Assembly (NCBI RefSeq): GCF_000212355.1
Contig: NC_015496.1
Span: forward strand, 558,001-622,000
Source: Dokdonia sp. 4H-3-7-5
Lineage (GTDB): Bacteria; Bacteroidota; Bacteroidia; Flavobacteriales; Flavobacteriaceae
Length of the DNA stretch: 64,000 bases
Reading direction: 5' to 3'
The notes beneath the pieces were generated by a model that saw only the letters and a program-made list of their open reading frames with translations, did not search any database and was not told where the DNA came from. Made by a program: the position numbers and the translations under genes. This document shows positions 18,825-25,657 of the stretch, piece by piece (the stretch's first letter is position 1; every line of letters begins with the position of its first letter).

Positions 18825-19907
18825 TTACGACTTCGCCACTTTCTTCTGGTGATTTATAGACTCTTGGTGTACTGCTTTAAACACACGTAGTATAAACTCT
18901 TCACTTAGATTGTTTTGCTCTCCTTCTAGAATCATCTTACCTAGAATTTCATTCCACCTTTTAGTTTGTAAGATAGACACATTATTTTCTGCTTTAAGCT
19001 CTCCTATACTATCAGAGATTTTCATGCGCTTTCCTAAGCTTTCAATAAGCTGGTGATCTATCACGTCAATCTTAGTACGTAATGTGTTCAATTTATTATT
19101 GTACTCTACCTCTGTACCTTCTTCTTTACGGATTTTTAAATCCTTCATCATTTGTACGAGCGTAGCTGGTGTGATTTGCTGCGCAGCATCACTCCATGCA
19201 TTATCTGGATCATAATGCGTCTCTACCATGATACCATCATAGTTGAGATCAAGACCTGTCTGGCATAAATCATGAATAATATCACGACGTCCAGCAATGT
19301 GTGACGGATCAAGAATTAGAGGAAGATCTGGAAATTTATTTTGAAGATCAATCGCTATCTGCCATTCTGGATTATTTCTGTAACGTGTCTTTTCATACGT
19401 AGAGAAACCTCTGTGTATTACTCCTAGATTTTTAATATCCTGAGTATAAAAACGCTCTACCGCTCCTAACCATAGGGCTAGATCTGGATTTACTGGGTTT
19501 TTAATAAGTACCGTTTTATCCGTTCCTTTAAGAGCTTCTGCAATTTCTTGAACGATAAATGGAGATACTGTTGTACGAGCACCTATCCATAAGATATCGA
19601 TATCTGCTTCAAGAGCTAGATCTACGTGATTTGCATTTGCAACCTCTGTCGTAGTAAGCATTCCTGTTTCTTCTTTGGCTTTTTGTAACCATTTAAGTCC
19701 AAGTGCTCCTACTCCTTCAAAGTTTCCTGGACGCGTTCTAGGCTTCCAGATCCCTGCACGTAGTACTGTAGCATCTGTGTCTTTAAGTTGGTGAGCAATT
19801 TTAAGCACCTGCGCTTCCGTCTCTGCACTACAAGGTCCTGCAATTACAAGAGGGTGATCAAGGCCAAAAGCGTCTAACCAATTTCTAAGTTCTTTCTTAT
19901 TTTCCAT
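18825..19907 (-). CDS. bifunctional DAHP synthase / chorismate mutase (type II)
   Basis: About 360 residues from MENKKELRNWLDAFG; an in-frame ATG at 19964 would add 19 residues read partly from the palindrome and is unlikely. Residues 1-260 are a 3-deoxy-7-phosphoheptulonate synthase barrel: VIAGPCSAET, RAGIWKPRTRPGNFEG, KNPVNPDLALWLGA, DPSHIAGRRD. The last ~90 residues are an AroQ chorismate mutase (LNTLRTKIDVIDHQLIESLG, KMISDSIGELKAEN with catalytic Arg/Lys helices). It starts the shikimate pathway and also makes prephenate, so it belongs with pheA and tyrA. It is the last gene of the operon and ends at 18771-18803. Confidence 0.94.
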   Translation of the reverse strand: MENKKELRNWLDAFGLDHPLVIAGPCSAETEAQVLKIAHQLKDTDATVLRAGIWKPRTRPGNFEGVGALGLKWLQKAKEETGMLTTTEVANANHVDLALEADIDILWIGARTTVSPFIVQEIAEALKGTDKTVLIKNPVNPDLALWLGAVERFYTQDIKNLGVIHRGFSTYEKTRYRNNPEWQIAIDLQNKFPDLPLILDPSHIAGRRDIIHDLCQTGLDLNYDGIMVETHYDPDNAWSDAAQQITPATLVQMMKDLKIRKEEGTEVEYNNKLNTLRTKIDVIDHQLIESLGKRMKISDSIGELKAENNVSILQTKRWNEILGKMILEGEQNNLSEEFILRVFKAVHQESINHQKKVAKS

Positions 19908-19945
19908 AACATTTAATTTGTGCCGCTTCGGGCTTTTGATATTTA

Positions 19946-19961
19946 CGCTTTCGCGAAAGCG
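19946..19961. repeat. 16-bp palindrome between tyrA and the DAHP synthase gene
   Basis: Perfect copy starting 6 bp beyond the tyrA stop codon; inside the operon, so it is transcribed and can fold as a hairpin. Confidence 0.9.
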
Positions 19962-19966
19962 CAAAA

Positions 19967-20818
19967 CTATTTAATTCCGTTTAATATTTCCTTAATGTGG
20001 TTCGTGTTTTCCATCTCATCATGTACTCCTTGAAAATCGTCATTTTCTAAAAGCATTTTAAAATCGCTGAGATTTGCAATATATTCAGTTAACGTCTCTA
20101 AGACATTCTCTTTATTCTGTTTAAAAATTGAGGTCCATGTTACTGGGTTACTTTTTGCCAAACGTACGGTAGATGCAAATCCGCTGCCCGCCATGTCAAA
20201 AATATCACGCTCATTTTTCTCTTTTTGTATGACCGTCTTACCTAGCATAAATGCACTTATGTGTGAGAGGTGACTCACATATGCAATATGCTTATCATGA
20301 GACACCGGATCCATGTAGCGTATGCGCATGCCCATATTCTTAAATAGGTCGAGCACCTTTTCTTGCAGCTTAAAAGCTGTTTTCTCTACCTCGCATATAA
20401 TATTAGTCTTCCCATTATACAAGCCTGTAATCGCTGCACTAGGTCCAGAAAACTCGGTTCCTGCTATTGGGTGACATGCAAGAAAGTTGCGACGCCTAGG
20501 GTGTGATGCTACTACTTCACAAATTGCTTGCTTAGTAGAACCCATATCTACCACAATCGTATCTTCTCCTATATGATTAAGAACGTCTGGTAGTACATGA
20601 ATAGCAACATCTACTGGGATTGCTAGCACTACGAGGTCTGCTGTTTTAATATCTTCTAGTACGGCGCCTTTATCTATAAAACCTAATGACAATGCTTCGG
20701 CTACGTGGGCTTCACTTGCATCTATACCATAAATAGTTGCCGCAGGTTCTTGCTCGCGCAAATCTCGCGCAAATGATCCTCCTATAAGCCCCAACCCTAT
20801 GATGTAAATATCTTTCAT
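19967..20818 (-). CDS. tyrA: prephenate dehydrogenase
   Basis: 283 residues, monofunctional. Oxidatively decarboxylates prephenate to 4-hydroxyphenylpyruvate. The dinucleotide-binding motif GLGLIGGSFARD is at 8-19, and the catalytic segment around HPIAGTEFSGP (116-126) with its His is present, as is VSHLSHISAFMLG. No ACT domain, so feedback control, if any, is elsewhere. Third gene of the Phe/Tyr operon, 78 bp after the aminotransferase. Confidence 0.94.
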   Translation of the reverse strand: MKDIYIIGLGLIGGSFARDLREQEPAATIYGIDASEAHVAEALSLGFIDKGAVLEDIKTADLVVLAIPVDVAIHVLPDVLNHIGEDTIVVDMGSTKQAICEVVASHPRRRNFLACHPIAGTEFSGPSAAITGLYNGKTNIICEVEKTAFKLQEKVLDLFKNMGMRIRYMDPVSHDKHIAYVSHLSHISAFMLGKTVIQKEKNERDIFDMAGSGFASTVRLAKSNPVTWTSIFKQNKENVLETLTEYIANLSDFKMLLENDDFQGVHDEMENTNHIKEILNGIK

Positions 20819-20896: not shown

Positions 20897-22039
20897 TTAA
20901 AATCTACGTATTGCTTCTTTAATTTCTTCTTCTTTTACACAAAGACTAAACCTGATGTATCCTTTCCCCATCGTTCCAAAAATGGTTCCTGGTGTGATAA
21001 AAATGAATTTCTCCAGTAAGATGTTATCTATAAAGGCTTCGGCATCGATTCCTTCTGGCAGTTTTGCCCAGACAAATAATCCTACAGCATCTCTGTCGTA
21101 TGTACAACCTAACCTTTCGGCAAGCTCATAAACTAGTTTACGGCGGCGTCCATAAATGGTATTGATATGCTCAAACCAGTCATCTCCTAAGCCTAAGGCT
21201 GCTACAGCTCCTTTCTGTATGCCGTAAAACATACCGCTATCCATATTAGATTTTACACGCAATACGTGTCCTATATTTTCGGCGCTTCCTAGTACCATTC
21301 CCACACGCCATCCGGACATATTGAAAGTCTTACTAAGACTGTTAAGTTCTAGGGCTACTTCAGACGCTCCTGGAACTGCTAGCAGTGATTGCGGATTGTC
21401 ATTAAGTACAAAACTATATGGGTTGTCGTTAATTACTAGTATGTGTTGCGCTTTCGCGAAAGCGATCAATTCTTCAAAAAAACCATCTGGCACCTTAGTC
21501 CCAGTAGGCATGTGAGGATAATTTACCCACATTATCTTTACACCTGAAAGATCTTGAGCAGCCAGTGCTTTTAAGTCTGGCAACCATCCGTTCTCCTCAT
21601 TAAGATCGTATGTAATTGCTTCTGCCTCCACAAGTCTCGTTACCGCAGCATAACTAGGGTATCCAGGATTAGGAAAAAGGACTTTATCACCAGGATTTAA
21701 AAATGCCATCGAGATGTGCATAATCCCTTCCTTAGAACCCATAAGTGGCAATATCTCAGTGTCTGGATTTGCGATTACTCCATATTGCTTTTTGTAGAAA
21801 TCTGCCATGGCTCCTCGCAACTCAGGAATACCAGTATAACTCTGGTACTGGTGAGCCACACTATCATGTAATCCTTTGAGCATAGCTGCAACGGCTGCCG
21901 GAGGCGCCGGCATATCTGGACTTCCTATTCCCATATTGATCACAGGATGACCGTCTGCAATGAGTGCGCGAACTTCCTTTAGCTTTCGCGAAAAGTAGTA
22001 TTCCTTGGTTTCCTGTAACCTATTTGCTGGTTGCATCAT
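20897..22039 (-). CDS. class I/II aminotransferase of the aromatic operon
   Basis: 380 residues. PLP fold-I enzyme with NMGIGSPDMPAPP at the start, Tyr/Asn/Asp ligands around NYPHMPTG and NDNPYSF, and the Schiff-base Lys237 in LNSLSKTFNMSGWRVG. Placed between prephenate dehydratase and prephenate dehydrogenase, it most likely makes Phe and Tyr from their keto acids; sequence resembles the LL-DAP/aspartate aminotransferase-like subgroup, so this is inference from context. Its start overlaps the pheA 3' end by 20 bp. The 16-bp palindrome encodes AFAKA (193-197) inside the gene, a segment that is AFAK-like in many relatives. Confidence 0.86.
   Translation of the reverse strand: MMQPANRLQETKEYYFSRKLKEVRALIADGHPVINMGIGSPDMPAPPAAVAAMLKGLHDSVAHQYQSYTGIPELRGAMADFYKKQYGVIANPDTEILPLMGSKEGIMHISMAFLNPGDKVLFPNPGYPSYAAVTRLVEAEAITYDLNEENGWLPDLKALAAQDLSGVKIMWVNYPHMPTGTKVPDGFFEELIAFAKAQHILVINDNPYSFVLNDNPQSLLAVPGASEVALELNSLSKTFNMSGWRVGMVLGSAENIGHVLRVKSNMDSGMFYGIQKGAVAALGLGDDWFEHINTIYGRRRKLVYELAERLGCTYDRDAVGLFVWAKLPEGIDAEAFIDNILLEKFIFITPGTIFGTMGKGYIRFSLCVKEEEIKEAIRRF
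21449..21464. repeat. 16-bp palindrome inside the aromatic aminotransferase gene
   Basis: Perfect copy read as GCT TTC GCG AAA GCG (AFAKA); a degenerate copy, CTTTCGCGAAAAG, lies at 21983-21995 in the same gene. Confidence 0.9.
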
Positions 22040-22853
22040 GCTTTCTGTTTTTGTAGGCTCCTAGTACTTTAAAGTCATTTGCCATGATCTCTAGTAATTG
22101 TACTGCCTTATTAAAGCTTTCTATTTTTTCAAAAGTTACATCTACAAAAAATGCATATTTCCACGGCTTCTCGATAATAGGCATGGACTGAATTTTTGTG
22201 AGATTCATCTTGCAATCACTCAGCACATTTAATATTGCCGCAAGACTACCACGCTTATGATCTGCCGAAAATCTTAGAGATGCCTTATCGATTACACCTT
22301 CTACTTGTTTTTTATCCTTATTTAAAATAAAGAATCGGGTTGCATTCTCATTAATAGTCTGGATAGACGCTTGTAAAATATTTAGTTTATAAATACTAGC
22401 TGCAACTGTACTTGCTATAGCTCCTATTCCTTGTAATTGCTTTTCTTGTATCTCTCTGGCTACGCCTGCGGTATCTGTATCTTCTACAAGCTTGATGTCT
22501 GGGTAGTTTCTAAAAAACTCACGACATTGTAAGATTGCCATAGGGTGTGACCACACTTCTTTTATATCTTCTATTCCTTGACCTGGTAGCGCCATTAACT
22601 GGTGCTGGATGTCAAGGTAAAACTCTCCTTCTATGTGCAAATCATGTTTATCTAGTAATGCGTAGTTAGGGAGTATTGACCCTGCGATACTATTTTCTAT
22701 AGCCATTACAGCATCTTGTACTTCACCTTCTACTAGTGCGTCTACTAGTCTAGGAAAAGACATGCACTCCACCACAGCAACGTCTGTCCCAAAAAATTCT
22801 TGAGCTACCTTGTGATGAAATGATCCTTGTACGCCTTGTATTGCTACTTTCAT
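22020..22853 (-). CDS. pheA: prephenate dehydratase
   Basis: 277 residues. Converts prephenate to phenylpyruvate. Periplasmic-binding-like catalytic domain (1-180) with VQGVQGSFHHKVAQEFF and the NATRFFIL (TRF) motif; C-terminal ACT domain (~195-277) with GSLAAILNVLSDCKMNLTKIQSMP, the Phe-binding region, so feedback inhibition by Phe is expected. No fused chorismate mutase; that activity is on the DAHP synthase at the operon's end. First structural gene of the operon; the transcription attenuator ends only 8 nt upstream of its ATG. Confidence 0.95.
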   Translation of the reverse strand: MKVAIQGVQGSFHHKVAQEFFGTDVAVVECMSFPRLVDALVEGEVQDAVMAIENSIAGSILPNYALLDKHDLHIEGEFYLDIQHQLMALPGQGIEDIKEVWSHPMAILQCREFFRNYPDIKLVEDTDTAGVAREIQEKQLQGIGAIASTVAASIYKLNILQASIQTINENATRFFILNKDKKQVEGVIDKASLRFSADHKRGSLAAILNVLSDCKMNLTKIQSMPIIEKPWKYAFFVDVTFEKIESFNKAVQLLEIMANDFKVLGAYKNRKHDATSK

Positions 22854-22861
22854 AATTGTGC

Positions 22862-22895
22862 AAAAAAAAAGCCCTGATAAAATTTATCAGGACTT
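22862..22895 (-). terminator. attenuator terminator of the Phe/Tyr operon leader
   Basis: Read on the minus strand: AAGTCCTGATAA, ATT loop, TTATCAGGGCTT, then a T tract (12-bp stem with one G-U pair, T tract 22862-22872). It lies between the leader peptide and pheA, so transcription through it decides expression of the four structural genes. Its left arm is also part of the antiterminator. Confidence 0.9.
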
Positions 22896-22941
22896 ATTGA
22901 AATATTGAGTGTTATTAAATTAGCACAATATCAATCCTGAT
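22886..22941 (-). promoter_or_regulatory. antiterminator hairpin of the Phe/Tyr attenuator
   Basis: ATCAGGA-TTGA-TATTG (22941-22926) pairs with CAATA-TCAA-TCCTGAT (22907-22886), 16 bp in three blocks with small bulges. The left arm is the end of the leader peptide coding region; the right arm overlaps the terminator's left arm, so the two folds exclude each other. Confidence 0.85.
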
Positions 22942-23000
22942 CTCTTCCCATAAAAGAAGAAATAGAAAAAATTGTTCCAATAATAAACGTTTGATAACAT
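22920..23000 (-). CDS. Phe/Tyr leader peptide (attenuator control)
   Basis: A 26-codon ORF, ATG at 22998-23000, stop TAA at 22920-22922, whose middle reads YYWNNFFYFFFY: five Phe, four Tyr and one Trp, mostly consecutive. It precedes antiterminator and terminator structures directly upstream of pheA. The design is the classical one: when charged tRNA-Phe or tRNA-Tyr is short the ribosome stalls on the run, leaving the antiterminator arm (22926-22941, coding the last six codons) free to pair; when both are plentiful the ribosome reaches the stop, covers that arm and the terminator forms. The peptide has no other recognisable role and was not among the long ORFs. Confidence 0.88.
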   Translation of the reverse strand: MLSNVYYWNNFFYFFFYGKRSGLILC

Positions 23001-23017
23001 GTTGAATTATTTGACTG

Positions 23018-23047
23018 CTAAAGTAGAAAAAATATCTAATGAGCCAA
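23018..23047 (-). promoter_or_regulatory. promoter of the Phe/Tyr operon leader
   Basis: On the minus strand, TTG (23045-23047), 19-nt spacer, TACTTTAG (23018-23025), one mismatch to TAnnTTTG. Transcription would start near 23012, giving about 12 nt before the leader peptide ATG. Confidence 0.6.
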
Positions 23048-25387: not shown

Positions 25388-25657
25388 ATGTATTTAACAA
25401 AAGAACAAAAGCAAGAGCTTTTTGCAAAACACGGTAAAGGAAAGCACGATACAGGATCTGCTGAAGGTCAAATCGCAATCTTTACACAACGTATCTCACA
25501 CTTATCAAACCACCTGAAAACAAATCGTAAAGATTATGTTACAGAGCGTTCACTAGTAATGCTAGTAGGTAAGCGTCGTTCATTACTTGATTACTTAATC
25601 AAGAAAGACATTTTACGTTACAGAGCTATTATTAAGGAACTAGGTATCCGTAAATAA
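25388..25657 (+). CDS. rpsO: 30S ribosomal protein S15
   Basis: 89 residues, normal size. Conserved features: GKGKHDTGSAEGQIAIFTQRI, HLKTNRKDY and LVGKRRSLLDYL, which contact 16S rRNA helix 22 and the central domain. Placed before pnp, as in many bacteria, though a terminator and ~430 bp separate them here. Confidence 0.97.
   Translation: MYLTKEQKQELFAKHGKGKHDTGSAEGQIAIFTQRISHLSNHLKTNRKDYVTERSLVMLVGKRRSLLDYLIKKDILRYRAIIKELGIRK

Follow-up and report, generated by a model that had tools for sequence, protein, structure and literature searches.

The textbook account of leader-peptide attenuation comes from Proteobacteria, and the pheA and trp leaders of E. coli are ribosome-mediated attenuators of enterobacterial amino-acid operons. 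Attenuators have reportedly been predicted in some Bacteroidetes, in a 2004 comparative survey by Vitreschak and colleagues and perhaps in a 2010 survey by Lopatovskaya and colleagues. Closer to the present case, the Flavobacterium psychrophilum transcriptome of 2021 offered strong clues of leader-peptide attenuation before amino-acid operons, and the structured 5' elements of pheA and hisG were conserved in other Flavobacteriaceae without Rfam hits (PMC9723704). That pheA element stands before the same gene in the same bacterial family as the leader examined here. In contrast, the parts of that report on which we draw give no leader peptide, alternative stems, Phe/Tyr mix or occurrence outside the family. 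Short ORFs reminiscent of attenuation leader peptides have also been described in Bacteroides thetaiotaomicron (PMC7366714). Full-text literature searches, whose coverage leaves out most subscription journals, returned nothing closer to the pheA leader.

Thus, the mechanism considered below is classical, and the existence of the element in the family has already been reported in outline. The original prediction, which held control of a joint Phe and Tyr operon by a mixed Phe/Tyr run to be little described in Bacteroidota, has to be narrowed to this extent; its claim of novelty holds in part, and neither the anatomy nor the Phe/Tyr mix appears in the consulted parts of the F. psychrophilum account. 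What is added here is an explicit anatomy, covariation, a control for codon specificity and the range of the element across Bacteroidia. The phylum differs from the Proteobacteria models in its promoters and translation start signals, and its amino-acid regulation is little studied.

The window is a 64,000-nt stretch of the genome of Dokdonia sp. 4H-3-7-5. It carries an aromatic amino-acid operon and a divergent neighbor:

22020-22853, minus strand: pheA, prephenate dehydratase, with a PDT domain (PF00800)
20897-22039, minus strand: second operon gene, encoding a PLP-dependent aminotransferase and overlapping pheA
19967-20818, minus strand: tyrA, prephenate dehydrogenase (NF006307, above cut-off)
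18825-19964, minus strand: DAHP synthase-chorismate mutase fusion, the sole DAHP synthase found in the genome
23248-24141, plus strand: gldA, gene for a gliding-motility ABC transporter, oriented divergently to the pheA operon

The best NCBIfam match of pheA is to prephenate dehydratase, at a score under that model's cut-off. DAHP synthase is the entry step for all three aromatic amino acids. A second DAHP synthase was sought and rejected: the genome's remaining PF00793 protein is a KDO8P synthase, and a search of this genome for PF01474 proteins found none, so the operon appears to hold the genome's only copy. The order pheA, aminotransferase, tyrA, DAHP synthase-chorismate mutase was kept in all 66 relatives with enough flanking sequence, and a gldA-like gene lay divergently upstream in 44 of these 66. 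Since gldA is divergent, the terminator described below does not belong to the 3' end of an upstream gene. Two further RNA elements were detected elsewhere in the window on the plus strand: an S15-Flavobacteria ribosomal protein leader (RF03161, 25327-25390) just 5' of an rpsO-like ORF at 25388, and a Flavo-1 RNA (RF01705, 7047-7127), which at 42.1 bits was barely above threshold.

Upstream of pheA, the leader contains the following elements in order of transcription, all on the minus strand:

23018-23047, minus strand: promoter-like site, TTG (23047-23045), a 19-nt gap and TACTTTAG (23025-23018)
23000-22920, minus strand: leader peptide ORF of 26 codons plus stop, product MLSNVYYWNNFFYFFFYGKRSGLILC
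22970-22950, minus strand: control codons F11-Y17, the Phe/Tyr run (segment 1), which can pair with segment 2 as an anti-antiterminator
22941-22926, minus strand: segment 2, the antiterminator's left arm, ATCAGGATTGATATTG
22907-22886, minus strand: antiterminator right arm, which contains segment 3 (TCCTGAT, 22892-22886)
22869-22895, minus strand: intrinsic terminator hairpin of 12 bp, AAGTCCTGATAA (22895-22884) paired with TTATCAGGGCTT (22880-22869)
22862-22870, minus strand: terminator T tract, 8 nt from the pheA ATG at 22853

The promoter-like site, the 26-residue Phe/Tyr-rich peptide, the 16-bp antiterminator and the 12-bp terminator with its T tract all lie where the original prediction had placed them. 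The TACTTTAG box is not an exact copy of the Bacteroidota -7 box TAnnTTTG, from which it differs by 1 mismatch. The 16 bp of the antiterminator, with every pair checked, fall into three blocks (7+4+5): ATCAGGA (22941-22935) with TCCTGAT (22892-22886), TTGA (22934-22931) with TCAA (22900-22897), and TATTG (22930-22926) with CAATA (22907-22903). The terminator stem includes one G-U pair. TCCTGAT is common to both helices, which verifies the arm through which terminator and antiterminator had been proposed to exclude each other. The folding energy of the 149-nt leader is -33.6 kcal/mol, which gives a z of -4.8 relative to dinucleotide shuffles; for its 84-nt 3' part, the fold z is -3.6. In the minimum free energy fold, the Phe/Tyr codons pair with the left antiterminator arm to form a 1:2 hairpin, a structure absent from the earlier description. 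A short stretch in or beside the antiterminator loop, ACACTCAA at 22905-22912 on the minus strand, is kept in most Dokdonia leaders and has no role in the model.

This arrangement resembles the enterobacterial attenuators in its leader peptide rich in the regulated amino acids, in its 1:2, 2:3 and 3:4 segments, and in an intrinsic terminator ahead of the first structural gene. Unlike them, the Dokdonia control run mixes Phe and Tyr before an operon that makes both, the operon includes the genome's only DAHP synthase, and the promoter-like site is a -7 box of the TAnnTTTG type near the start codon.

The locus very probably controls the Phe/Tyr operon by ribosome-mediated transcription attenuation. 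The transcript would begin just 5' of the leader ORF, and a ribosome would translate the ORF close behind RNA polymerase. If charged Phe- or Tyr-tRNA were scarce, the ribosome would stall within F11-Y17 and leave segment 2 free to pair with segment 3; the terminator would not form, and the pheA, aminotransferase, tyrA and DAHP synthase genes would be transcribed. If both Phe and Tyr were plentiful, the ribosome would reach the stop codon and cover segment 2, whereupon segments 3 and 4 would form the terminator and transcription would halt before pheA. When the leader is not translated, the run may pair with segment 2, so that termination would also be favored. This reading is built on the ORF, the alternative stems, their conservation and covariation, codon specificity and geometry, all of which were observed; from them we infer promoter use, translation of the ORF, stalling and a change in read-through.

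Conservation of the ORF was scored among 99 distinct Flavobacteriaceae pheA loci including the window, the closest named relatives in this comparison being Dokdonia; two loci had too little upstream DNA, leaving 97. A short ATG ORF rich in Phe/Tyr, with at least 6 such residues in 10 codons, was present upstream of pheA in 96 of the 97 (the exception being L022). Of 485 dinucleotide shuffles of these regions, 20 reached the same density, as did 3 of the 97 reverse complements. The sequence of the leader peptides is not conserved; their Phe/Tyr density is. Within the run, leaders differ mostly by swapping TTT with TTC, TAT with TAC, or Phe with Tyr. When whole peptides are considered, the third position of the codon is the most variable in three of four sets, though not in the full Dokdonia set, and by a modest excess; this pattern supports translation of the putative leader, short of proof. 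Exact TAnnTTTG boxes within 80 nt upstream of the leader ATG were found in 48 of 110 loci, against 7.6 expected from mononucleotide shuffles.

The competing helices were examined in 110 loci, 96 from Flavobacteriaceae and 14 from further relatives. A terminator was called in each; two calls (L073 and L123) were wrong picks, and these loci were excluded from the spacing, hairpin and helix counts. We took the best duplex that the left arm of the terminator forms with the sequence following the Phe/Tyr run and compared it with dinucleotide shuffles; the antiterminator reached p <=0.05 in 103 of 110 loci (mean z -3.8), a count that overstates the number of events because related loci are not independent. 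The stronger argument is that the predicted helix is rebuilt in 53 different sequences: segments 2 and 3 pair as 53 distinct helices, the terminators likewise come in 53 distinct forms, and segments 2, 3 and 4 change jointly between genera. Thus, Dokdonia has TCAGGA/TCCTGA; Algibacter, Flavivirga and relatives have CGAGAC/GTCTCG; Polaribacter and Tenacibaculum have GAGACTTT/AAAGTCTC; and Flavobacterium has GGGATTGT/ACAATCCC, with GCGGGAC/GTCCCGC as a further pair among the relatives. Within Dokdonia, one locus (L014) has CAGAAC/GTTCTG where its congeners have CAGGAC/GTCCTG; covariation was judged across genera, because an alignment of Dokdonia alone varies too little for a formal pair count. 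The 1:2 pairing, taken as at least 3 core nucleotides of segment 2 paired with the run, was seen in 107 of 108 loci when the stretch was folded alone and without a shuffle control. Consistent with what had been proposed, the relatives retain the small ORF together with competing, mutually exclusive stems, and they show compensatory changes.

If the leader codons sense the product of the operon, other biosynthetic operons should carry other codons. Among the hisG loci (L185-L213, and L134 of the window's genome), all 29 that were readable have a His-rich upstream ORF, with 3 or more His in 10 codons, and 0 of these 29 a Phe/Tyr-rich one; a thirtieth, incomplete locus was skipped. In the window's genome, hisG (L134) is preceded by MNNNNTHHHHTSIIAQAR (HHHH) and a trpE-like gene (L136) by MKNNTVHTWWWITQQSLS (WWW), each followed by a terminator and a competing helix, the competing duplex having p of about 0.007 at each by mononucleotide shuffle. 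These leaders share with that of pheA a short ORF with control codons followed by a terminator and a competing helix; the pheA leader differs from them in its control codons and in stem sequences unrelated to theirs. With Phe/Tyr at pheA, His at hisG and Trp at the trpE-like gene, the leader codons follow the pathway product, which upholds the interpretation of the pheA leader as an attenuator. No attenuator was seen by eye in the DNA upstream of the leuA, ilvD and homoserine dehydrogenase genes of the same genome; at one of these loci (L143), the DNA examined lay inside an open frame. Attenuation appears to be standard for the control of aromatic and histidine synthesis in this phylum.

These observations bear on the idea that the leader is a riboswitch-like RNA, sensing a protein or metabolite, in which the short ORF is incidental and untranslated. 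Alternative stems by themselves suit any terminator/antiterminator switch, and the conserved ACACTCAA stretch of the Dokdonia leaders is left unexplained by the attenuator model. However, an incidental ORF would not be expected to recur rich in Phe/Tyr in 96 of 97 loci, with run changes that are mostly synonymous or Phe/Tyr exchanges and with codon identity tracking the operon product; the helices are rebuilt from unrelated sequence, unlike a ligand pocket; and the region has no Rfam match. We therefore consider a riboswitch-like RNA very improbable. In the leader region, no Rfam family reached its gathering score, and Phe_leader was not among the weak matches up to E = 5; weak matches such as MicC and VrrA, far under their thresholds, were rejected. 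The leader family is now missed by Rfam, and hence by routine annotation.

Attenuation also demands a particular geometry. Among relatives, 7-17 nt (median 11) separate the last Phe/Tyr codon from segment 2. We modeled a ribosome on the nascent RNA of the window, transcribed as far as segment 3, with an assumed footprint reaching from 14 nt upstream to 13 nt downstream of the first P-site nucleotide. With the A site anywhere from F11 to Y17, the antiterminator core had a probability of 0.98; this fell to 0.54 at G18 and was 0.00 from K19 through the stop codon, so the boundary of masking falls at the end of the Phe/Tyr run. In this model, a stall in the run would expose segment 2 and a ribosome at the stop codon would hide it, as the original prediction had supposed for the left arm. 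Some relatives have their stop codon ahead of segment 2 or right where it begins, and a ribosome there would still cover the segment. For the full-length RNA at equilibrium, the terminator was favored at every ribosome position (0.93-0.94); therefore, switching must be kinetic and decided during transcription. In nascent RNA free of a ribosome, the antiterminator core still had a probability of 0.90, so the 1:2 hairpin could exert its effect only if it formed first. The other two blocks of the antiterminator, middle and distal, were only half formed, with a mean of about 0.53.

This preference for the terminator at equilibrium, whatever the position of the ribosome, is also what one would see if the terminator merely lowered basal transcription without amino-acid switching, as a constitutive or decayed attenuator. 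Against this, the competing helix is upheld by coordinated changes across genera, and the masking boundary meets the end of the Phe/Tyr run; we give this explanation hardly any credence. Least credible of all is that the ORF encodes a functional small aromatic, perhaps membrane, peptide and that the terminator ends a separate small-gene transcript: the peptides have a hydrophobic mid-section and the ORF has its own promoter-like site, but the run varies freely in its length, its ends and what surrounds it, whereas its Phe/Tyr content is kept, the coding end doubles as segment 2, and the site directly before pheA is maintained.

We return to the attenuator and its range. Of 29 further loci from class Bacteroidia, two of them from the window's family, 22 had a Phe/Tyr-rich leader ORF (>=6 in 10), as did 0 of 11 loci from other classes of the phylum; this class-level scan admitted GTG and TTG starts, which sets its chance level somewhat above that of the ATG-only scan of Flavobacteriaceae. 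In the set that had supplied the 14 further relatives for the helix comparison, a leader ORF was found in 14 of 20 loci, one of them (L115) with only 5 in 10; those lacking it were three loci of family f5, L122 and two of family f22, the upstream sequence of the two f22 loci resembling the end of another gene. At class level, the antiterminator reached p <=0.05 in 14 of 20 loci by mononucleotide shuffles, while 3 failed and 3 had no terminator call; terminators were called under strict perfect-stem rules, and the call at L150 was poor. The comparisons indicate that the predicted Phe/Tyr switch is real and widespread in most of the Bacteroidia relatives examined, and in a sample taken without a tree, the putative element looks older than the family Flavobacteriaceae. 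The conserved set of leaders provides ready reporters for transcription-translation coupling in Bacteroidota.

Trp is also present in 68 of 96 leader peptides. The 70 Trp residues make up ~3.4% of residues after the start, compared with 0.8% in the long ORFs of the window, a comparison that ignores kinship among the leaders; their positions vary by lineage. We hypothesize that the pheA leader may sense Trp as well, since the one DAHP synthase of the genome is encoded in this operon. A broader reading, to which we hold only tentatively and which is on balance doubtful, is that the element may be an ancestral Bacteroidia sensor of Phe, Tyr and Trp, of which some lineages would carry two or three complete attenuators in series. 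To our knowledge, no tandem attenuators before a pheA-type operon are known. Tandem attenuators have been described for Salmonella mgtCBR (PMC3641672). Before pheA, we found three tandem units of a Phe/Tyr-rich leader ORF plus terminator at one locus (L126, genome G058) and two each at two others (L160, genome G094; L161, genome G129).
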